Source: Burkholderiales bacterium RIFCSPHIGHO2_12_FULL_69_20 (GTDB taxonomy: Bacteria > Pseudomonadota > Gammaproteobacteria > Burkholderiales > Burkholderiaceae_C). Taken from it: a DNA stretch of 32,221 nt. The notes under the pieces are model-generated. The model did no database searches, was not told the origin of the DNA, and worked only from the letters and a program-made list of their open reading frames with translations. Below are positions 9,707 to 32,221 of the stretch, in pieces. Position 1 is the first letter of the stretch. Every line of letters starts with the position of its first letter. The translations under genes were made by a program, and so were the position numbers. The stretch spans positions 45,131 through 77,351 of the forward strand of contig MESD01000032.1 in assembly GCA_001770815.1 (NCBI GenBank). Direction: 5' to 3'.

Positions 9707-10225
9707 TCAATCGGTGTAGTGGGGTGGGTCCGGGTCGTTGGCCCAATCCTTGTCGGGCTCGGGCACCTTCTTCAGCCAGGCGCGCACCAGTTCGACATGC
9801 TCGCGTTCTTCGTCCTGCATCTCCAGTGCGGCAAGGCGCACCGGCTCACTCGTCGCCATCTGCGCCAGGCGGCCGAAGAAGGCCTCGGCGCGTTGCTCGG
9901 CGGCCAGCGCCAACTGCAGCGCGTGCCAGGGCTGCATCAGGTAGTGCACCTCGTCGATCGGCACCGTCTCGGGGCCTTCCAGGTCGGGCCAGCCGAAGCC
10001 GTCTTCGGGCGGCGGCGGGTCGCTGGCCCAGCCCATCTGCGCCAGGATCTGTTCGACATGCTTGCTTTCGTAGTGCGCCATGGTGCGGAACAGCGCCGCC
10101 ACCTCCTGGTTGTTGTGCACTTCCATGGTGTCGGCAAACTCGGTGTAGCGCGCCACCGCCTCGCGCTCCATGGCCAGCGCCTGCGCCATGAAATCGACCA
10201 GCGTGCGCGGCAGGGAGGCCTTCAT
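9707..10225 (-). CDS. Ferritin-like (rubrerythrin-type) diiron protein
   Basis: A 172-aa four-helix protein. Two half-sites of a ferritin-like diiron centre are visible: an N-terminal Glu (AMEREAVARYTEF) with ESKH, and a C-terminal Glu (LAAEQRAEAFF) with EEREH. The full E...ExxH...E...ExxH ligand set is present. There is no rubredoxin-type CxxC domain and no signal peptide. It starts 8 bases after the korB stop and is followed by a RidA gene. Rubrerythrin relatives reduce peroxide or bind iron. Being in one operon with an O2-sensitive 2-oxoacid:ferredoxin oxidoreductase suggests oxidative protection or iron supply (inference). Similar proteins lie at 27381-27878 and in the N-terminus of the fusion at 29461-31680. 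Confidence 0.85.
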   Translation of the reverse strand: MKASLPRTLVDFMAQALAMEREAVARYTEFADTMEVHNNQEVAALFRTMAHYESKHVEQILAQMGWASDPPPPEDGFGWPDLEGPETVPIDEVHYLMQPWHALQLALAAEQRAEAFFGRLAQMATSEPVRLAALEMQDEEREHVELVRAWLKKVPEPDKDWANDPDPPHYTD

Positions 10226-15416: not shown

Positions 15417-16185
15417 TGCGGCTTCGTGCCTGCGGGTCTGGCTGGACCGCGACGGCGCGCTGCTGCGCCTGCGGCTGGCGCGGCCCAAGGCCAACATCGT
15501 CGACGCGCAGATGATCGGTGCGCTGCATGCGGCGCTGGCAGCCCACCGCGCCAGCCCCGGCCTGCGGGGTGTGCTGCTCGACGCCGAAGGCCCGCATTTC
15601 AGCTTCGGTGCCAGCGTCGAGGAGCACCTGGCCGATCGTTGCGCGGCGATGCTGGCCGGCCTGCATGCACTGATCATCGCGATGGTCGAGTTCCCGCTGC
15701 CGATCCTCGTGGCCGTGCGCGGACAGTGCCTGGGCGGCGGCCTGGAACTGGCGTTGGCCGGCGGGTCGATCTTCGCGGCGCCCGATGCGCAACTCGGTCA
15801 GCCCGAGATCAAGCTGGGTGTCTTTGCCCCGGCGGCGAGTTGTTTGCTCGGCTGGCGCGTCAACCAGAGCACGGCCGAGGACTTGTTGTGGTCGGGCCGC
15901 AGCATCAGCGGCACCAGCGCGTTGGCGGTGGGCCTGGTGCAGGTGCTGGCCGACGACCCTGAAGCGGCCGCGCTGGCCTGGTTCGACGAACACCTGCTGC
16001 CGCGCAGTGCCGTGGCACTGGCCTGCGCTGTCGCTGCGGTGCGCGCACCGCGGTTGCGCGAGCTTCGCCAACGCCTGGCCGACGTCGAACGCCTGTACCT
16101 CGACACCTTGATGACGACCCACGACGCCAACGAAGGCCTGGCCGCCTTCCTGGCCCGCCGTACCCCTGCCTGGGAGCACCGCTGA
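15409..16185 (+). CDS. dch: Cyclohexa-1,5-diene-1-carbonyl-CoA hydratase Dch
   Basis: A 258-aa enoyl-CoA-hydratase-family protein. The oxyanion-hole segments are HFSFGASVEEHL (about 63-75) and VRGQCLGGGLELALAGGSIF (about 101-120), followed by GQPEIKLGVFAPAAS. It adds water to the dienoyl-CoA made by benzoyl-CoA reductase, giving 6-hydroxycyclohex-1-ene-1-carbonyl-CoA. The SFGASVEEHL version of the motif is the one seen in Dch proteins of anaerobic benzoate clusters. Its start lies inside the end of oah and its stop shares one base with the bcrC ATG, so translation is coupled on both sides. Confidence 0.9.
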   Translation: MTDAASCLRVWLDRDGALLRLRLARPKANIVDAQMIGALHAALAAHRASPGLRGVLLDAEGPHFSFGASVEEHLADRCAAMLAGLHALIIAMVEFPLPILVAVRGQCLGGGLELALAGGSIFAAPDAQLGQPEIKLGVFAPAASCLLGWRVNQSTAEDLLWSGRSISGTSALAVGLVQVLADDPEAAALAWFDEHLLPRSAVALACAVAAVRAPRLRELRQRLADVERLYLDTLMTTHDANEGLAAFLARRTPAWEHR

Positions 16186-17363
16186 TGGACAACACCCCCA
16201 AAGTCACGCAGATCGTGCAGCGTTGCGAGGCGCTGTTCGATGACCTGCATTTCAACGCCGTCAAGGACTGGAAAGCGGCGGTACCCGGGCGCAAGGCCAT
16301 CGGCTACATGCCGGTGTACGTGCCGCGCGAACTGATCCATGCGGCCGGCATGCTGCCGGTGGGCATTCTCGGCGGCGGCGATTCGCTCGAGGTGATCCAG
16401 GGCGACGCCTATTACCAGAGCTACATCTGCCGCATCCCGCGCTCGACCATCGAGCTCGGCCTGACCGGCCGGCTCGACTGCCTGGACGGCATGTTGTTCC
16501 CGTCGATCTGCGACGTGATCCGCAACCTGTCGGGCATGTGGAAGATGCTGTTCAAGGACAAGTACGTGCGCTACCTCGACGTGCCGCAGAACTACCAGGA
16601 CGAGGTCGGCGGCACCTTCTATGTGCAGGAAATGCAGATCCTGCGCGAGGACCTGGCCGAACTGGCCGGCCGACCGATCACCGATGCCGACCTGAATGCC
16701 TCGATCCGCGTCTACAACGACAACCGTGCCGCGATGCGCGAGCTCTACGCCTACCGCGCGGCCAAGCCCTGGCAGGCGCCCACCTCCGAGGTCTACCTGG
16801 TGCAACGCGCCGGCATGGTGCTGCCGGTGGAGGAACACACGCCGCTGGTGCGCGAGTACATCCGCGCCGCCGAGTTGATTCAGCGGCCGAAGCGCGACAA
16901 CGCCCGCGTGGTCATCAACGGCAGCTTTTGCGAGCAGCCGCCGCTGGCGCTGATCAAGTCGATCGAGATGGCGGGCTGCTATGTCGTCGACGACGACTTC
17001 ATGCTCGTCAACCGCTGGCTGCTCGACGAGGTGCCGGCCGACGGCGAGCCACTGCGCGAGCTGTCCAAGGCCTTCCTGCACCGCTCGGCTTCGACCGCTG
17101 CGAAGTACGACCAGACGCGCGAGGAGAAGGGCGTCTTCCTGATGAAGCAGGTGAAGAACGGCGGCGCCGAGGGCGTGATCTTTGCGGCGCCCTCGTTCTG
17201 CGATCCGGCGCTGCTCGAGCGGCCGATGCTGCAGGATGTCCTCTCAAAGCACGGCATCCCGCACACGGCGTTCAAGTACGCCGAGAACACCGGCCAGATG
17301 GCGCCGATTCGCGAACAGGCCGGCACCTTCGCCGACTCCATCAAGCTCTGGAATGCAGCATAA
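16185..17363 (+). CDS. bcrC: Benzoyl-CoA reductase subunit C
   Basis: A 392-aa member of the HgdB/BcrB/BcrC (2-hydroxyglutaryl-CoA dehydratase D-component) family. Recognisable blocks include PGRKAIGYMPVYVPRELIHA, AAGMLPVGILGGGD, QSYICRIPRSTIELGL and FPSICDVIRNLSGMWK, with cysteines suited to a [4Fe-4S] cluster. With BcrB it forms the ring-reducing module that transfers electrons to benzoyl-CoA. Length agrees with the Thauera-class subunit. Start ATG overlaps the dch stop; bcrB follows after 10 bases. This is a class I, ATP-dependent enzyme and not the BamB-I type. Confidence 0.93.
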   Translation: MDNTPKVTQIVQRCEALFDDLHFNAVKDWKAAVPGRKAIGYMPVYVPRELIHAAGMLPVGILGGGDSLEVIQGDAYYQSYICRIPRSTIELGLTGRLDCLDGMLFPSICDVIRNLSGMWKMLFKDKYVRYLDVPQNYQDEVGGTFYVQEMQILREDLAELAGRPITDADLNASIRVYNDNRAAMRELYAYRAAKPWQAPTSEVYLVQRAGMVLPVEEHTPLVREYIRAAELIQRPKRDNARVVINGSFCEQPPLALIKSIEMAGCYVVDDDFMLVNRWLLDEVPADGEPLRELSKAFLHRSASTAAKYDQTREEKGVFLMKQVKNGGAEGVIFAAPSFCDPALLERPMLQDVLSKHGIPHTAFKYAENTGQMAPIREQAGTFADSIKLWNAA

Positions 17364-17373
17364 GGACCGCGCC

Positions 17374-18762
17374 ATGAACACCCCGATCGCCATGCCCAAG
17401 CCCACCGGTTCCGCCAAGAAGCCGCCCGCCGTCCAGAAAGAGGACGCGATGTGGTTGCAGAAGGAACTGATCAACAAGAACTATGCCGAACTCGCCAATG
17501 CCCGCGCCAACAACCAGAAGGTCTCGGCCACCTTCGTGCCGGGCAACCTGAACGAGTTGCTGATGTGTTTCGATTTCGCGCGCAGCCTGCCCGAGACCAA
17601 TGCGCTGCAAAACGGCATGCGCAAGAAGAGCGGCAAGATGATCATGGACGCCGAGCGCGACGGCCAGAGCGAGGACGTCTGCACCTACGTCAAGGCCGAT
17701 CTCGGCATGATGCTGGGCGGAGAGGTCGGCCCCAGCGGCGAGGTGCTGCCCAAGCCCGACATCCTGTTGCTGAGCTACACCGGCTGCTTCACCTTCATGA
17801 AGTGGTTCGAGCTGATCCGCCACAAGTACGGCTGCGAGACGGTGATGCTGCACGTGCCCTACCAAGGCGAAGGCCGCATAGCGCCCAACATGCGCGACTA
17901 CGTGGTCAAGCAGCTCAAGGAAACCGTGATCCCGACGCTGGAGCGCATCTCGGGCGTCAAGTTCGACATCGACCGGCTGCGCCAGTACATGCGCGAATCG
18001 GTCAAGGCCGAAGAGAACCTGGTGGCGGTGCTGCAGTCGGCCAAGCACCGGCCGAGCCCGATCGACGGCTACTTCGGTGCGGTGTACTACATCGGCCCGA
18101 TCTTCACCGCCTTCCGCGGCACGCCCGAGGCCACCGAGTACTACCGCGTGCTGCGCGGCGAGATCGAGGAGCGCATGCGCCTGGGGCTGGGCCCGATCAC
18201 GCCCGACGGTGCGATGGGCGAGGAGAAGTACCGCCTGGTGGTCGAAGGCCCGCCCAACTGGACGAGTTTTCGCGAGTTCTGGAAGATGTTCTACGACGAA
18301 GGCGCGGTGGTGGTGGCCTCGACTTATGCCAAGGTGGGCGGGCTGTATGACTTCGGCTTCCGCCACGACCCCGACCATCCATTGGAGTCACTGGCCGAGT
18401 ACTGCCTGGGTTGCTACACCAACCTGAACCTGCCTTCGCGCGTGGACATGATCTGCCGGTACATCGACGAGTACCAGGCCGACGGCTTGCTGATCAATTC
18501 GATCAAGAGCTGCAACAGCTTTTCGGCCGGGCAGCTGTTGATCATGCGCGAGGTCGAGAAGCGCACCGGCAAGCCCGCCGCGTTCATCGAGACCGACCTG
18601 GTGGACCCACGCTACTTCTCGGCCGCGAACGTGAAGAACCGGCTGGAGAGCTACTTCCAGATGGTCAAGGCCAAGCGCGGCGCGGGCGCGGCGGTGTCCG
18701 CGGCTGCTGCGGCGGAGCTTGCCCGAATGGGGGGCAAGATCATCCCCATCGCCGCCAACTGA
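17374..18762 (+). CDS. bcrB: Benzoyl-CoA reductase subunit B
   Basis: A 462-aa subunit of the same family as BcrC. Key segments are [54 protein letters not shown] and [16 protein letters not shown]; their cysteines probably hold the second [4Fe-4S] cluster of the substrate-binding module. A lysine/proline-rich N-terminal extension of about 20 residues ([14 protein letters not shown]) precedes the conserved part, and an alanine-rich stretch ([19 protein letters not shown]) follows near the C-terminus. The ATG at 17374 is preceded by AAGGA. bcrA starts 14 bases downstream of its stop. Confidence 0.93.
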
Positions 18763-18776
18763 AACGGGGGTTAGCC

Positions 18777-20111
18777 ATGCGCTGCTTCATCGGCATCGAC
18801 CTCGGCTCCACCACCACCAAGGCGGTGGTGATCGACGAGCACCAGAACATCCTCGGTCGCGGCATCACCAACTCAAGATCGAACTACGACACGGCCGCCG
18901 CCATCGCCAAGCAGGAGGCGCTGGTCAACAGCCGCTTCCACCTGTTCCGCGAAAAGCTCGGCAGTACCGGCGCCCTGAACGGCGCGCTCGACGGCTTCAT
19001 CGCGCAGTTGGAGCGCGACTTCCGCTCCGAGCAATACCTGGAGCAACTGGCCGACCTGGAACAGACCTGCCAGCGCAGCCTGGCCACGGCGCACTTTGCC
19101 GGCGCCCCCGTGCGCGAGGCGCTCGACGAGGTCTTCAGGCGCCTGACGGCCGAGGCGCCGGCGCTGTTTGCGCCCGGTGCCAAGCGCAAGTCGGATTTCT
19201 TCCGTGACATCGCCGGCAGCCAGTACCTGGCCACCGGCGAGGTCGTGGCCAAGGAGGTGGGCACGCGTTACGACTACCTGCTGAACCTGTTCGACCGTTC
19301 GATCATCGAGGTCGAGAACCGCGTCTATGCCGATTCGATCCGGCGCCACCTGCTGGCCGCGCTGGAGCGCACCTTCATCGCGCTGCCCGAGACGACCGCG
19401 CGTCGCGCGCAGGTCGAGGCGCCGATCAAGGGCATCCTCGACACCGAGCTGGAGGAAACCTATGTGGTGGGCACCGGCTACGGCCGCGCGCGGCTGCCGT
19501 TCAGCAAGGAGCACATCCGCTCCGAGATCCTGTGCCACGGCCTGGGCGCCCACGTGATGTACCCCGGCACGGCCACGGTGCTGGACATCGGCGGCCAGGA
19601 CACCAAGGCGATCCAGATCGACCCGGCCGGCATCGTCGAGAGCTTCCAGATGAACGACCGCTGCGCCGCCGGTTGCGGGCGCTACCTGGGCTACATCGCC
19701 GACGAGATGAACATGGGCCTGCACGAGCTGGGGCCGATGGCGATGAAGTCGACCAAGGCGATCCGCATCAACTCGACCTGCACCGTCTTCGCCGGTGCCG
19801 AGTTGCGCGACCGACTGAGCCTGGGTGACAAGCGCGAGGACATCATGGCCGGCCTGCACCGCGCCATCATCCTGCGCGCGATGTCGATCCTGGCGCGCTC
19901 GGGCGGGGTGCGCGACCAGTTCACCTTCACCGGCGGCGTGGCCAAGAACGAGGCCGCGGTGAAGTCGCTGAAGGAACTCATCAAGGAGAACTACGGCGAC
20001 GTCACCTTGAACATCGATCCCGATTCGATCTACACCGGCGCGCTCGGCGGGGCCACCTTCGCCTGGCGTGCGGTGGTCGAAGAGGGCCGGTCCGTCGAGA
20101 CCCGAGTTTGA
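18777..20111 (+). CDS. bcrA: Benzoyl-CoA reductase ATPase subunit A
   Basis: A 444-aa ASKHA-fold ATPase of the BadF/BadG/BcrA/BcrD family. It has the phosphate-1 motif [13 protein letters not shown] at residues 5-17, the second phosphate motif [12 protein letters not shown], and [12 protein letters not shown] with C296 and C300. C335 (STCTVF) lies 39 residues after C296. The activator protein of 2-hydroxyglutaryl-CoA dehydratase has its cluster cysteines with the same spacing as I recall it. With BcrD it would bind one shared [4Fe-4S] cluster and hydrolyse ATP to drive electrons into BcrBC. The ATG at 18777 follows a GGGGG stretch. Confidence 0.94.
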
Positions 20112-20122
20112 AGGAGCATCAA

Positions 20123-20962
20123 ATGATCCATACCATCGGCATCGACATCGGCTCCGGCGCCGTCAAGTCCGTTCTCTTTCGCCACGACGACGGCGCGCCG
20201 GTCTGGCTGGCCAAGCGCTGCGAGCGCATCCGCAGCCGCGATCCGATGACGCTGGCGCGCCAGGGCTTCGACGATGTGCTCGCCGACGCCGGCCTCGCGG
20301 CCGACGACATCGACTACACCGCCACCACCGGCGAGGGCGAGAACGTCAAGTTCGCCACTGGGCACTTCTATTCGATGACCACGCACGCCCGCGGCGGCGT
20401 CTTCCTCGAGCCGACGGCGCGTGCGGTGGTCGACATCGGCGCGCTCAACGGCCGCGCGATCTACATCGACGAGCGCGGCAAGGTGCTGAGCTACAAGATG
20501 ACCAGCCAATGCGCGTCGGGTTCGGGCCAGTTCCTGGAGAACATCGCCCGTTACCTGGGCGTGGCGATCGAGGAGATCGGCCCGCTGTCGCAGAGCTCGA
20601 AAGAGCCCGAGAAGGTGAGTTCGATCTGCGCCGTGCTGGCCGAAACCGACGTCATCAACATGGTCAGTCGCGGCATCGCCACGCCCGACATCCTCAAGGG
20701 CATCCACCTGTCGATGGCCTCGCGCATCGTCAAGCTGCTCAAGGTCACCGGCGTCAAGAGCGGCACCGCACTGCTCACCGGCGGCCTGGCGCTGGACAGC
20801 GGGCTGCTCGCGGCCATCCAGGAAGAGATGGTCAACGAGAAGGTCAACGTGCAGGCGATGTCGCACCCCGATTCGATCTACGCCGGCGCCATCGGTGCCG
20901 CGCTGTGGGGCGCTTTCCGGCATGAGCGGCTGGCGGCATTGCAGGAACAGGTCGTCGCCTGA
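20123..20962 (+). CDS. bcrD: Benzoyl-CoA reductase ATPase subunit D
   Basis: A 279-aa ASKHA ATPase subunit. The phosphate motif is GIDIGSGAVKSVLF; the second region reads VVDIGALNGRAIYI rather than the DIGGQDTK of BcrA, which as far as I recall is usual for BcrD. C130 (in TSQCASGSGQF) and C169 (in SSICAVLAE) are 39 residues apart, like C296 and C335 of BcrA, so each subunit offers two ligands to a bridging cluster. AAGGAG lies 6 bases before the ATG at 20123. The ferredoxin gene follows 40 bases downstream. Confidence 0.94.
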   Translation: MIHTIGIDIGSGAVKSVLFRHDDGAPVWLAKRCERIRSRDPMTLARQGFDDVLADAGLAADDIDYTATTGEGENVKFATGHFYSMTTHARGGVFLEPTARAVVDIGALNGRAIYIDERGKVLSYKMTSQCASGSGQFLENIARYLGVAIEEIGPLSQSSKEPEKVSSICAVLAETDVINMVSRGIATPDILKGIHLSMASRIVKLLKVTGVKSGTALLTGGLALDSGLLAAIQEEMVNEKVNVQAMSHPDSIYAGAIGAALWGAFRHERLAALQEQVVA

Positions 20963-24554: not shown

Positions 24555-25037
24555 TCACGCCGACGCGTAGGCCATGCTCAGCTCACGGTCGGTGTCGTCG
24601 TCGAGCAGGTCGTCGAGCATCGGCAGCAGCGCCATCGTCTCTTTCTGGATATGCGAGACCTGACGCTCGACGATCTCCATCACGCCGCGCTTGAAGGCGT
24701 CGAAGTCGCCGTCGGCCAGCGTGCCCGTGGCCATCGCGCGCGCCAGCGGCAGCAACTCGGCCGCGGCCTCGCGGATGGCATCATGCTCTTCACTCAGCAA
24801 GGCGGCGATGTCAGCTTCGCCGGCATCGACCAAGCGCGGGAACAACTCGCGCTCCTCGAAATCGAAGTGCGCGCCGGTGTCGTGCTCGATCAGCCGCACC
24901 AAGGCGCTGGCCAGGGCGGTGAACTGCGTATCGCCCTCCGGGGCTCGGTTTCGCCGCGCGAGGGCCTGCTCGAGGCGGCCCAGCACATCGAGTGCGGCAC
25001 GGTGCTCGGTGTCGAGCGTCTGGCTGACCTGACCCAT
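24555..25037 (-). CDS. Hemerythrin-like domain protein
   Basis: A 160-aa helical protein with hemerythrin-type iron ligands: TEHRAALDVL near residue 11, a central HDTGAHFDFEERELFPRL, EEHDAIREAA, and QVSHIQKETMALLPML near the end. HxxxE-type spacing and the final H/E pair fit a diiron hemerythrin fold. No signal peptide. Proteins of this kind act in NO or O2 sensing and in Fe-S cluster repair in denitrifiers. Just upstream is a palindrome (25058-25071) and then an NnrS-like gene on the same strand, supporting a nitrosative-stress context. Confidence 0.8.
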   Translation of the reverse strand: MGQVSQTLDTEHRAALDVLGRLEQALARRNRAPEGDTQFTALASALVRLIEHDTGAHFDFEERELFPRLVDAGEADIAALLSEEHDAIREAAAELLPLARAMATGTLADGDFDAFKRGVMEIVERQVSHIQKETMALLPMLDDLLDDDTDRELSMAYASA

Positions 25038-25057
25038 GGGTTGACTTTCTCTAAAAC

Positions 25058-27380: not shown

Positions 27381-27878
27381 CTACCGCGAGCCCGGTCGCT
27401 CGGGGTCGGCGTCGAAGGTGGCCGAGGGCCGCGGCGTGCGTGCCAGCCAGTCTTCCAGCGCTTCGACATGCTCGGTCTCTTCGGCCGCAAATTCGCCGGC
27501 CAGGCGCTTGACCTCGGGGTCGCTGGATTGCTGGCCGACCGAGGCGTAGTAGTCGAGCGCACGCGCTTCGTTCTCGCGCGCGTAGCGCAGCGCGCTGTAG
27601 GCGTCGAGCGTGCTGTCGAAGGCCTCTTCGCCGCCGGCCTCGGGCGGCTGCGTCCAGCGGTACTGCCACGATCGCAGCGTGGGCAGCGCCACGCCGTGGG
27701 CGCGCTCGACGATCGAGTCGTGATGCATGCGCGAGAAGCGCACCATGTCGCGGAACAGCGCCGACACCTCGTCGTTGCGATGCGCTTCCATCATGTCGGC
27801 GAGTTCGAGGTAGCGTTCCGCCGCCTCGTGCTCCAGCGCGATGGCGTGAGCCAGGAATTCGGGCAGCGTGTAGTTCAT
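27381..27878 (-). CDS. Ferritin-like (rubrerythrin-type) protein with one altered iron ligand
   Basis: A 165-aa homologue of the ferritin-like protein at 9707-10225: NYTLPEFLAHAIALEHEAAERYLEL and EVSALFRDM align directly. The C-terminal half keeps its Glu (ARENEARALDYY) and EETEH. In the N-terminal half the ExxH motif is altered: aligned with ESKH of the homologue it reads SRMH, so the Glu is replaced by Ser (other acidic residues nearby may compensate). The iron site may therefore be mononuclear, asymmetric or lost. It starts 34 bases downstream of the badH-like stop on the same strand. Role unknown; an oxidative-stress or iron function is inferred. Confidence 0.82.
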   Translation of the reverse strand: MNYTLPEFLAHAIALEHEAAERYLELADMMEAHRNDEVSALFRDMVRFSRMHHDSIVERAHGVALPTLRSWQYRWTQPPEAGGEEAFDSTLDAYSALRYARENEARALDYYASVGQQSSDPEVKRLAGEFAAEETEHVEALEDWLARTPRPSATFDADPERPGSR

Positions 27879-29460: not shown

Positions 29461-31680
29461 TCAATCCAGCGCGAGGTGCAGTTCCTGCAGCTTGCGCCGC
29501 AGCAGCTTGCCGGTGGGGGTGCGCGGCAGCGCGTCCACGACGTGCAGCCAGCGTGGCCGCTGGTACGGCGGCATCGCCTCGGCTGCGGCGCGCAGCGCGG
29601 CCTCGACCGTGGTGGGGTCGCCGGCGACGAAGAAGAACGCGACCGCATCCACACCATCGGCGTCGGGCACGCACACGGCCGCGGCCTCGGCGATGCCGGG
29701 GGCACGCAGCGACAGACGCTCTTCGAGCTCGACCAGGTTGACCCAGCGGCCGTGGATCTTGACCAGCGAATCCTCTCGACCGGCGAAGCGCCACCCCATG
29801 GGATGTGGCCCCGAGGCGGCCGCTGCGCGACCGCCGCCCCCCGAGGGGTGCAAGTCAACTTGGGGCGGCCCGGCGTTGACTTGGTACTCAATGGCAAACA
29901 GATCGGCCGGGCAGAACGCGCCATCGCGGAAGTGCTCGGACTGGGCCTGCGGCCGGTCGAGGTAGCCCAGCGCCAGCGTCGGTGCGCGGATCAGCAGCCG
30001 CGTCGGTGCTCCGGGCGCCACTTCGGACAGGGGTTGGATGTCGACTCCGGGCGAGGGCGCGAAGCCGTCGCCGTCGCCGCGGTCGATCATCACCAGCACC
30101 AGTGTTTCCGACGCGCCGTAGCCGTTGACGATGCCCAGCCCGGACTGCTGCAGCCAGGCGCTGCGCAGGCTGGCCGGCAGCGCTTCGCCGGCCGACACGC
30201 ACAGGCGCACGCCGGCGGCGGCGATTGCCGGAGCGTGGCCCGCGTGCAGCAGGTTACGGTACAGCGAAGGGACGCTGAAGAGCACCGTCGGGCGCTGCGC
30301 CGCCACCGTGGCAGCCACGCTGGCGGCGGTGGGCCACTGCGGGTCGAGGATCACGGTGGCGCCCAGCTTCAGCCCGGCAAACAGGCTGTTGGTCTGCGGA
30401 TACGAGAAGAAGAGTTTGGAGCTGGCGAACAGGCGGTCGCCAGCGACCAGCCCCAAGCCCTCGCGCGAGACCTGTTCGATCTGCCGCGCGAAGCGATGGG
30501 CGTGCACCACCGCCTTGGGCTTGCCCGAGGTGCCCGACGAATGGCACCACAGCGCCGGCGAGTCCTCGTCCATGGTCTGCGCGGGCAGGGCGGTGCAGCG
30601 GGGCAGCGCGTCACGCCAATCGCCTTGCAGCAGCACGCGCTCGCGCCAGGGCGAGGGCGTGTCGTCGAGCGTCTCGGCCAGGATCAGGCGGAAGCCGGCT
30701 TCGTCGAGGATGTACTGCCAGTCGGCCACCGGCGCGCGCGGGTTGACGCCGACCGCAATGGCGCCGCACCAGATCGTGCCGAGGAAGGCGACCACCCAGT
30801 CGGGCCCGTCGGGCAGCTTGATGGCGACGCGATCGCCGGGCCCGACGCCGTGCGCGCGCCAGCACGACGCGGTGCGCGCCACACGCGCGCGCAGTTCGCC
30901 GTAGTCCAGGCTCTCGCCGCCGTGGCACACCAGGGCGGTGCGCCGTGCGTCCTGCCCGTCGAGCAACAGCGCCGCCGCGTTCATCGTGTGCGCGGCCTGA
31001 TCGCCCGGCCGCGGCGCCGCGGCATGCGGGTCGGTGCCGAGACGGCCGGAGGCCCCGGCCGACCAGCGCGCGTGCGCGTCGGCCAGCAATTCCGCGTGGG
31101 CGCGTTCTTCATCGGCCAGGTCCAGGTACAGGCGCTGCGTCGCCGAGCCTTCACCCGCCAGCGACGCGCGTTCGCTGAAGAAGCGCATCGCCCGCTGCTC
31201 CAGGCCCAGCGCGATGCGGAACAGGTTGTCCGGGTCTTGCGGCCGGTGCTCGATGCCGGCAAAGAGGGCGGCCGCCTGCAATCGCAACGCCGGCGATGGC
31301 GCCGGTGGCTCGACATGGAAGCGCCGCGACAGCGTCTCCATGTGCTCGCCTTCCATCACGGCAAAGCGGCTGAACAGCGCGCGCAGCACAGGGTCGGTGC
31401 TGTCGGCGGCGGCGCGTTGGTAAAACGCGCGGCCACCCAGCTCGATCTCGAAGGCCAGGCGCACGCCTTCGATCGCTGCGGCCTCGGGTGTGCCATCGCG
31501 TCGCGTGTCCAGCTGACGCAGCTTGACGTTGCAGCTTGGGCACAACCCATAGGCGAAGGCGAAGCCCCGGTGGGTCTGGCCGCAAGCGCTGCAATGCCAC
31601 AGGCCGCTGGCGTCGGCGCAGCAGAGTGATCCGGCGTGGTCGTTCACGGCCAGGTCGTGGTGGCATGACGGGCATTGCAT
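29461..31680 (-). CDS. Zinc ribbon-rubrerythrin-benzoate-CoA ligase fusion protein
   Basis: A continuous 739-aa ORF of three parts. Residues 1-50 have cysteines at 3/6, 20/21, 30/33 and 47/50, a zinc-ribbon/rubredoxin-like pattern. Residues about 66-225 are a ferritin-like domain with Glu in FEIELGGRAFY, E110-G-E-H113, Glu in GLEQRAMRFF and EERAH, a full diiron ligand set. Residues 233-739 are an AMP-forming aroyl-CoA ligase of the benzoate-CoA ligase type: CHSSGTSGKPKAVVHAHR, ASSKLFFSYPQTNSLFAG, NGYGASE, WRFAGREDSLVKIHGRWV and catalytic Lys in RTPTGKLLRRKLQ. GAGG precedes the ATG at 31680. The internal Met233 has no SD, so a single polypeptide is likely. About 30 residues at 600-631 come from an inserted repeat. 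Ligase substrate: benzoate or 4-hydroxybenzoate (inference). Confidence 0.85.
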   Translation of the reverse strand: MQCPSCHHDLAVNDHAGSLCCADASGLWHCSACGQTHRGFAFAYGLCPSCNVKLRQLDTRRDGTPEAAAIEGVRLAFEIELGGRAFYQRAAADSTDPVLRALFSRFAVMEGEHMETLSRRFHVEPPAPSPALRLQAAALFAGIEHRPQDPDNLFRIALGLEQRAMRFFSERASLAGEGSATQRLYLDLADEERAHAELLADAHARWSAGASGRLGTDPHAAAPRPGDQAAHTMNAAALLLDGQDARRTALVCHGGESLDYGELRARVARTASCWRAHGVGPGDRVAIKLPDGPDWVVAFLGTIWCGAIAVGVNPRAPVADWQYILDEAGFRLILAETLDDTPSPWRERVLLQGDWRDALPRCTALPAQTMDEDSPALWCHSSGTSGKPKAVVHAHRFARQIEQVSREGLGLVAGDRLFASSKLFFSYPQTNSLFAGLKLGATVILDPQWPTAASVAATVAAQRPTVLFSVPSLYRNLLHAGHAPAIAAAGVRLCVSAGEALPASLRSAWLQQSGLGIVNGYGASETLVLVMIDRGDGDGFAPSPGVDIQPLSEVAPGAPTRLLIRAPTLALGYLDRPQAQSEHFRDGAFCPADLFAIEYQVNAGPPQVDLHPSGGGGRAAAASGPHPMGWRFAGREDSLVKIHGRWVNLVELEERLSLRAPGIAEAAAVCVPDADGVDAVAFFFVAGDPTTVEAALRAAAEAMPPYQRPRWLHVVDALPRTPTGKLLRRKLQELHLALD
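29790..29885 (-). repeat. Palindromic repeat element inserted in frame within the ligase domain
   Basis: Contains CTTGGGGCGGCCCGGCG at 29859-29875, whose reverse complement CGCCGGGCCGCCCCAAG matches the oah element at 16 of 17 bases and the had element closely. It also contains GCGGCCGCTGCGCGACCGCC, a dyad. It encodes a Gly/Ala/Pro-rich insertion between ADLFAIEY and GWRFAGRED, two blocks that are nearly adjacent in related ligases. Confidence 0.65.
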
Positions 31681-31707
31681 CGTGGACCTCGGAGTTCTCA
31701 AGCCAAT

Positions 31708-31770: not shown

Positions 31771-32221
31771 TCAATGCGGCGGCCGCTCGCCGGCCAGCTC
31801 TCGCAGCAGGCGCTGCGCATGAACGGCGGCGACGAGGCGGCGGTAGTTCGACGGCGTGACCGTCGTGCGCATCGGGCTGACCTGCTTTTGCACCAGCTTG
31901 CCCAACGACGCCAACGCCGCGTCGTCGACCGGCTTGCCGAGCAGCGCGTCGGTGCCCTGCAGGTGCAGTGGGTGCGAGTTGGTGCCGCTCAAGGCCAAGC
32001 GCAGGGCGCCGAGCACGCCGCCGCTCACGCGCAGCGCGACGGCCACGCCGGCCAGTGGAAAGTCCATCGCGCCGCGCACGCGTGCCTTGCGGTAGCCGCT
32101 GATGAATCCCGCGGCAGGCGCCGGCACCTGCACGCGCACCAGCACTTCATCGCGTTCGACCGCCAGGTGCGCCGCACCGTCGTCGCGATAGCAGTCGGCC
32201 AGCGCGAGGCGGCGTGTGCCA
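31771..32221 (-). CDS. hcrB: 4-Hydroxybenzoyl-CoA reductase beta (FAD) subunit HcrB, 3' part
   Basis: The frame is open from the right window edge to the stop at 31771, giving about the last 150 residues of a ~320-aa flavoprotein of the xanthine-dehydrogenase family. The sequence resembles Thauera aromatica HcrB: GYRKARVRGAMDFPLAGVAVAL, LRLALSGTNSHPL, GTDALLGKPVDD and RTTVTPSNYRRLV. The N-terminal FAD-binding half lies outside the window. HcrABC removes the phenolic hydroxyl of 4-hydroxybenzoyl-CoA reductively to give benzoyl-CoA. The fusion ligase downstream, 90 bases away on the same strand, could make 4-hydroxybenzoyl-CoA or benzoyl-CoA. Confidence 0.87.
   Translation of the reverse strand, partial: GTRRLALADCYRDDGAAHLAVERDEVLVRVQVPAPAAGFISGYRKARVRGAMDFPLAGVAVALRVSGGVLGALRLALSGTNSHPLHLQGTDALLGKPVDDAALASLGKLVQKQVSPMRTTVTPSNYRRLVAAVHAQRLLRELAGERPPH

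Follow-up and report, generated by a model that had tools for sequence, protein, structure and literature searches.

The PRK12775 family (NCBIfam NF009413) consists of Nfn-like proteins (FNR plus GltD) with a ferritin-like domain at the C terminus. AadN, a pattern B Nfn homologue of Rhodopseudomonas palustris with a small-plus-large layout, is required for anaerobic growth on benzoate and 4-hydroxybenzoate and adjoins the hba genes, according to a report (PMC9973337) whose main text does not contain the term "ferritin." Rubrerythrins hold their diiron site with four glutamates and two histidines, and HydR of Clostridium perfringens, a chimera of an [FeFe] hydrogenase and rubrerythrin, works as an H2-dependent H2O2 reductase, as described in a second report (PMC11926857). 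Diiron hemerythrins are described in a third as shielding the 2-oxoacid oxidoreductases Por and Oor from O2 in Campylobacter (PMC4257069). Here we describe a gene that joins a rubrerythrin-like module to an aroyl-CoA ligase. It lies in a stretch of 32,221 nucleotides (the window) from Burkholderiales bacterium RIFCSPHIGHO2_12_FULL_69_20 (GCA_001770815.1, contig MESD01000032.1, positions 45,131–77,351, forward strand).

Our analysis confirmed that the two parts belong to a single protein. As a preliminary description of this DNA had claimed, one uninterrupted frame joins a ribbon, a ferritin-like domain and a ligase: the minus strand of 29461–31680 translates to 739 residues without a stop, in the order eight-cysteine rubredoxin-like ribbon, diiron-type four-helix bundle, aroyl-CoA ligase. 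We scanned 84,980 species for homologues, each represented by a single genome, with two peptide patterns, which would miss diverged fusions elsewhere; the scan returned 44 loci, from which 36 full-length fusions besides the window's were kept, belonging to 33 assemblies (three pairs share one). These and the window copy make up the alignment of 37 proteins referred to throughout. The parts of the gene are as follows (pLDDT, predicted local distance difference test).

29461..31680, minus strand: whole fusion gene, 739 amino acids, stop codon included, no internal stop
31687..31690, minus strand: GAGG, a Shine–Dalgarno-like motif, 6 nucleotides before the ATG at 31680
31507..31680, minus strand: N-terminal ribbon with eight cysteines, residues 1–58 (C3, C6, C20 and C21 plus the rubredoxin-like C30, C33, C47 and C50)
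31060..31488, minus strand: diiron rubrerythrin-like four-helix bundle, residues 65–207 (putative ligands E80, E110, H113, E161, E192 and H195)
30982..31059, minus strand: variable linker, residues 208–233, its last codon (30982–30984) being Met233
29464..30981, minus strand: aroyl-CoA ligase of the ANL family, residues 234–739 (H380, K389, E525, D593 and K725 invariant in 37/37)
29803..29883, minus strand: in-frame insert of 27 codons, residues 600–626, in the window copy only; a dispersed genomic repeat, pLDDT below 50

The 36 further fusions, each in one frame, show that the window gene is not a local frame accident. The preliminary description would have been refuted had homologous loci always carried the two parts as separate genes; the 37 intact fusions that we aligned show that they do not. 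Set aside from the 44 loci were three with the module alone (L096, L098 and L101), a near copy (L080), one of different architecture (L083) and three cut by contig ends (L065, L092 and L093); neighborhood counts refer to 40 loci (the 44 less L080, L096, L098 and L101). The label is Burkholderiales, or a family or genus within it, for 32 of the 36 and broader for L060 (uncultured bacterium), L070 (Pseudomonadota), L072 (Gammaproteobacteria) and L091 (Proteobacteria). Mean pairwise identity over the 37 rows was 0.65 in the ribbon, 0.65 in the bundle and 0.67 in the ligase, as against 0.29 in the linker. The ratio of nonsynonymous to synonymous substitution rates (dN/dS), calculated by NG86 for 13 hand-chosen pairs (close relatives, and two pairs with the window copy), was 0.08–0.30 for the bundle, 0.10–0.28 for the ligase, 0.02–0.52 for the ribbon and 0.06–1.6 for the linker. 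Thus, the bundle and the ligase are both under purifying selection, and the linker varies. Ribbon values above 0.22 came from three pairs, two of them with the window copy. That the fusion is an artefact of assembly or annotation is hardly credible: nearly all homologues do come from metagenome-assembled genomes (MAGs), but the idea is contradicted by the many separate assemblies and genera, by the one named cultured strain with a fusion, Ramlibacter monticola KACC 19175 (L074), and by the selection on both parts.

An upstream in-frame TTG at 31701 is a possible alternative start; we prefer the ATG at 31680 because it is preceded by the GAGG motif and because the starts of the homologues align there. 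A Shine–Dalgarno-like 4- or 5-mer precedes 34 of the 37 fusion starts, as compared with 56 of 305 internal ATG codons, which served as a control. A plus-strand open reading frame of 920 amino acids over the same DNA was taken to be a GC-rich open frame. In an AlphaFold2 model of the whole protein (37 rows, mean pLDDT 79.1), four long helices and a ligase fold are seen, and the ribbon is poorly determined.

The ribbon holds a putative metal site (Zn or Fe), with four of its cysteines arranged in the rubredoxin-like form CxxC-x13-CxxC. These four (C30, C33, C47 and C50) are present in 37/37 fusions, and the others nearly so (C3 in 36, C6 and C20 in 35 each, C21 in 34). The rubredoxin-like Pfam model RUBY_RBDX matches residues 28–53 below its cut-off (17 versus 26.5 bits). 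In the bundle, whose modeled helices span residues 65–93, 97–121, 150–174 and 180–207, the expected set of glutamate and histidine ligands announced in the preliminary description is complete: the six putative ligands, four glutamates and two histidines, are identical in all 37 proteins. We take their spacing (E, ExxH, E, ExxH) to be the rubrerythrin diiron ligand pattern. The Pfam model Rubrerythrin (PF02915) exceeds its gathering score in the window protein (29.7 versus 22.8 bits) and matches 34/37 fusions at an E value of 0.001. The fusion has in common with rubrerythrins the Glu-plus-ExxH pattern and, putatively, a rubredoxin-like Cys4 unit; it differs in that its cysteine domain is N-terminal and has four extra cysteines, and in a weak match by fold search.

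The module also resembles the tail of PRK12775. Residues 2–213 match positions 798–1005 of that model with 238 bits; the whole-protein cut-off of 1895 bits is not reached, and the fusion shares the C-terminal module without being a member of the family. One other NCBIfam match to the N-terminal 215 residues was listed at an E value of 1e-5, and it is weak. Unfused modules that we aligned have the ribbon cysteines and the putative ligands in common with the fusion. In PRK12775, however, the module ends a flavoprotein; in the fusion it leads into an aroyl-CoA ligase.

The ligase part scores above the Pfam cut-offs for AMP-binding (196.8 bits, residues 245–574) and AMP-binding_C (35.7 bits, residues 658–725); at an E value of 0.001, PF00501 is found in 37/37 fusions and AMP-binding_C in 19/37. 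K725 is presumably the catalytic lysine of the ANL C-terminal domain. The closest named relatives, of the same ANL fold, are benzoate-CoA ligase (TIGR02262) and the 3-hydroxybenzoate-CoA ligase HbdA (NF053567), and the best Protein Data Bank (PDB) neighbors by Foldseek are anthranilate- and benzoate-CoA ligases. The fusion has some 230 extra N-terminal residues and falls below both curated cut-offs (234 versus 375.25 bits for TIGR02262, 309 versus 1000 bits for NF053567), so that benzoate is not established as the substrate. It is unlikely to serve as the general benzoate-CoA ligase, since it adjoins hcrB and since a separate, plain benzoate-CoA ligase is encoded near boxC; its substrate is probably a hydroxybenzoate. 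On this point the preliminary description, which set the protein beside benzoate-CoA ligases, needs to be changed.

Between the two parts lies the linker, in which residues 215–228 have pLDDT values below 50. An internal start near residue 233, yielding a free ligase besides the full fusion, was considered and judged very improbable. Four unfused ligases (L117–L120) do probably begin at or beside the position of Met233, and one fusion (L072) has GTG there with AAGG before it. But 31 of the 37 fusions have no Met before N234, and none of the six that do has a Shine–Dalgarno motif, which bears out the earlier observation that Met233 lacks one.

Where did the module come from? All 11 unfused modules that we read accompany a gene for an Nfn/AadN-like flavoprotein, which immediately precedes them or shares their frame: in L101 and L130 the module is in one frame with the Nfn-like protein, in L096 and L098 it is a separate gene just 3′ of the Nfn-like gene, and in 7/7 loci recovered by searches of the order and genus (L103–L109) it follows that gene. 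The Nfn protein matches PRK12775 positions 1–780 (1397 bits), and the module matches 798–1005. AadN, compared by description only, resembles the module-adjacent Nfn-like gene in its layout. An Nfn-like gene is also the nearest recognized upstream gene in 21 of the 40 fusion loci (within 138 bases in 20; at 1064 in L063), hcrB takes that place in 10, as in the window, and 8 had none of the query genes upstream, some of them lying at contig ends; in L083, HcrB is in frame. Given the tie of the unfused modules to the Nfn-like gene, the module probably merged with the gene that followed, an aroyl-CoA ligase gene beside hcrB and the benzoyl-CoA reductase genes.

The trees, which are quick searches with support only from the SH-like approximate likelihood ratio test (SH-aLRT), suggest one merger with later changes and give no proof of a single origin. 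In the module tree, unfused L103 stands beside fused L060 (88), with 16 open forks. In the ligase tree, built without L122 and flagged for long branches, three of the four unfused ligases branch apart from the fused proteins, while the fourth, L117, clusters with fused L084 (SH-aLRT 88). A ligase from a genome of the same genus (G003, at L003:1501–3000), in which we found no match to the module, is placed among the fused proteins (SH-aLRT 99 and 100 in a set of 14 rows); its first residues, MPCPPCHPP, are likely a remnant of the ribbon.

The following genes of the window belong to the setting of the fusion gene.

31786..32220, minus strand: 3′ part of hcrB (4-hydroxybenzoyl-CoA reductase beta), directly upstream of the fusion and partial at the contig end; TIGR03195 positions 179–319, 164 bits
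28686..29456, minus strand: enoyl-CoA hydratase (ECH), directly downstream of the fusion; homologue in 25/40 fusion loci
27381..27878, minus strand: stand-alone rubrerythrin-like gene RbrB, PF02915 over cut-off; homologue in 13/40 fusion loci
About 24555–25040: hemerythrin gene; homologue in 12/40 fusion loci
9707–10225: RbrA, stand-alone rubrerythrin-like gene beside korB, in the window's benzoyl-CoA cluster
16185..20962, plus strand: class I benzoyl-CoA reductase genes bcrC-bcrB-bcrA-bcrD, BcrC over cut-off

The benzoyl-CoA reductase neighborhood assumed in the preliminary description is right; BcrC matches TIGR02263 with 650 bits. Dienoyl-CoA hydratase, Oah, Had and BadI also exceed curated cut-offs, and a PaaK-like ligase is below its own. 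The names bcrB, bcrA and bcrD are presumed from gene order and look, and korAB and padBCD presumed in part from gene order or Pfam. BcrC was over its cut-off in 30 of the 36 fusion genomes and in 33 of all 41 genomes examined. In a sample of 399 genomes of the order, 7 had the module at more than 200 bits, 13 had BcrC over its cut-off and 5 had both. Fisher's test, uncorrected for kinship, gave P = 3e-7 for this overlap and 7e-6 when the window genome was omitted. At an E value of 0.001, 20 genomes matched the module and 20 matched BcrC. The window's own genome also encodes, on another contig, a canonical unfused benzoate-CoA ligase (808 bits), separated from boxC by one gene for a BoxR/BzdR-type regulator. 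Thus, of the two ligases in this genome, the one in the anaerobic cluster carries the module and the one near an oxygen-using box gene is plain.

The fusion is a conserved two-part Burkholderiales protein, of genomes mostly with the anaerobic benzoyl-CoA pathway. We propose that in it a rubrerythrin-type peroxide or O2 reductase is tethered to an aroyl-CoA ligase; we regard this proposal as evenly poised between right and wrong. A pyridine-nucleotide flavoprotein, or a ferredoxin or rubredoxin, would supply electrons via the Cys4 site, and with these the diiron site would reduce H2O2 (or O2) to water beside the entry enzyme of the pathway. Less oxidant would then reach 4-hydroxybenzoyl-CoA reductase, benzoyl-CoA reductase, KorAB and their ferredoxin when oxygen returns, while the ligase part would perform its normal ATP- and CoA-dependent reaction. 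For the fusion itself we infer the metal, the peroxidase activity, the electron donor, the substrate and the benefit of the tether. A peroxide or O2 role for the diiron part is plausible: the module's usual Nfn partner is a plausible source of electrons in light of the requirement for AadN in anaerobic growth on aromatic acids, HydR and the Campylobacter hemerythrins provide precedents, and the window has three further diiron-type genes (RbrA, RbrB and hemerythrin). HydR, likened here by its description, resembles the fusion in carrying a rubrerythrin unit on an unrelated enzyme; in HydR, however, the diiron site is fed by a partner that is itself a redox enzyme, whereas an acyl-CoA ligase makes no electrons.

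To our knowledge, how the O2-sensitive benzoyl-CoA pathway is protected in facultative anaerobes under fluctuating oxygen is poorly understood. The fusion suggests that an oxygen-sensitive aromatic-acid pathway may be guarded against oxygen at its entry step, and as a conserved, cloneable 80-kDa protein it makes the question of protection testable. It also places a rubrerythrin-type unit on an enzyme without redox chemistry, lends a functional context to the ferritin-like tail of PRK12775/Nfn proteins, and belongs to a genomic series in which the module is found on Nfn, beside Nfn, on the ligase and apparently lost again. The fusion is not described in those open-licence PMC texts on rubrerythrin, benzoyl-CoA reductase, aroyl-CoA ligases and Nfn that we consulted (subscription papers and protein-database annotation lay outside the search); within that literature it is an undescribed variant on the rubrerythrin chimeras already known, one whose partner does no redox chemistry.

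The preliminary description had suggested that the diiron part senses or removes O2 or peroxide, so that aroyl-CoA formation responds to oxygen. Its tie, when unfused, to an Nfn/AadN-type flavoprotein favors removal by an electron-fed scavenger over pure sensing. Were the fusion a redox gate, its diiron/rubredoxin unit would detect O2 or peroxide and turn the attached ligase on or off, letting aroyl-CoA enter the anaerobic pathway only without oxygen and leaving the box-cluster ligase to serve under air. This seems to us unlikely, although two things speak for it: selection maintains both joined parts, and the window's own genome has a fused anaerobic-cluster ligase and an unfused one near boxC. 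The linker is variable and of low confidence, so that no conserved coupling surface is evident, and unfused relatives of the module sit in or beside an electron-transfer enzyme. That a ligase activity responds to O2 is speculation, and it is quite unlikely that a diiron switch turns aroyl-CoA formation off and so lets a facultative anaerobe choose between the box and benzoyl-CoA reductase routes at the protein level, beyond transcription. We are also doubtful, if somewhat less so, of a passive fusion, in which the module keeps its ancestral job and the join is a neutral merger of neighboring genes that does no more than fix their coexpression. The Nfn-like gene so often found just upstream, the variable linker, the reversal in G003, the loss of the ribbon in L083 and the relaxed constraint on the ribbon of the window copy all speak for it; the persistence of the join across the 37 proteins of the alignment, as against a single clear reversal found, and its persistence without an upstream Nfn gene in the window and in the 10 loci with hcrB upstream, speak against it.

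Several observations weigh against the tethered reductase that we prefer. In a model of the module alone (26 rows, mean pLDDT 78.1), Foldseek found no PDB match at an E value of 0.001; the best were 2fzf and 2oh3, and rubrerythrin 1ryt ranked 39th (E value 0.13). The ribbon of the window copy is less constrained (dN/dS 0.36 and 0.52 in its pairs, as against 0.02–0.45 in the other 11), and the terminal branch of this copy is long in the tree of the module (0.67, as against a median of 0.14) but not in that of the ligase (0.22). No Nfn-like gene stands beside the window fusion, and a search at an E value of 1e-100 found none in 8 of 41 genomes, the window's own (G000) among them, and only the GltD half in some others; one of the 8, G458, does have a fragment beside L085. 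Alternation of Nfn with KorAB was rejected as an explanation for the missing upstream gene: KorA was present in 38/41 genomes at an E value of 1e-60, with or without Nfn. G003 keeps the pathway without the module, and L083 (4146–7058), whose locus contains no N, encodes HcrB (418.7 versus 404.55 bits), bundle and ligase in one frame of 971 amino acids from which the ribbon is gone. Six of the 36 fusion genomes have no BcrC over its cut-off (one has a contig-edge fragment). Except in the window genome, the modules that co-occur with BcrC in the order sample are unfused and on a contig other than that of BcrC. Finally, G357 and G422 have the module without BcrC, and a gene for a NifJ-type pyruvate:ferredoxin oxidoreductase adjoins 5/7 unfused modules of the L103–L109 set; thus, the module is not specific to aromatics. 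Taken as a whole, the interpretation in the preliminary description is partly supported.

In L105–L109 the Nfn-like, ferritin-like module and NifJ-type genes follow one another and apparently form an electron cassette of low potential.

The fusion is rare: one of the 399 genomes sampled from the order has it, the window's own, as do 2 of 21 of the genus, and in a sample of the phylum the module (E value 1e-20) was found in 2 of 398 genomes, one again the window's. A search of plasmids for the fusion matched 1784 records, all below 60% identity, and the best 10 of the 1784 were of the nonribosomal peptide synthetase/adenylation type or unannotated. One locus outside the order, L080, comes from a MAG labeled "Anaerolineales." It has a Burkholderiales-like fusion at the end of its contig, with 94% identity to L081 across 2.7 kb, and was excluded as probable misbinning, recent transfer being the alternative.

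The stretch with the insert has 33 residues in the window copy, as against a median of 6, and the insert is absent from the other 36 fusions. Its GC-rich repeat occurs at 15 other places in the genome at E values below 0.01 and at 40 at an E value of 10, the best other copy being 91% identical over 65 bases. The window's own contig (C32) also has an open frame of 740 amino acids (L129:340–2562), in which a match to acyl-CoA synthetase covers only 193–739.

Finally, we note that five assemblies each contain two fusion loci (L073 and L088, L069 and L094, L100 and L102, L076 and L093, L070 and L092) and that L077 seems to contain two fusions in one locus. L088, L094 and L100 are without hcr or ECH neighbors and may serve another aromatic acid.

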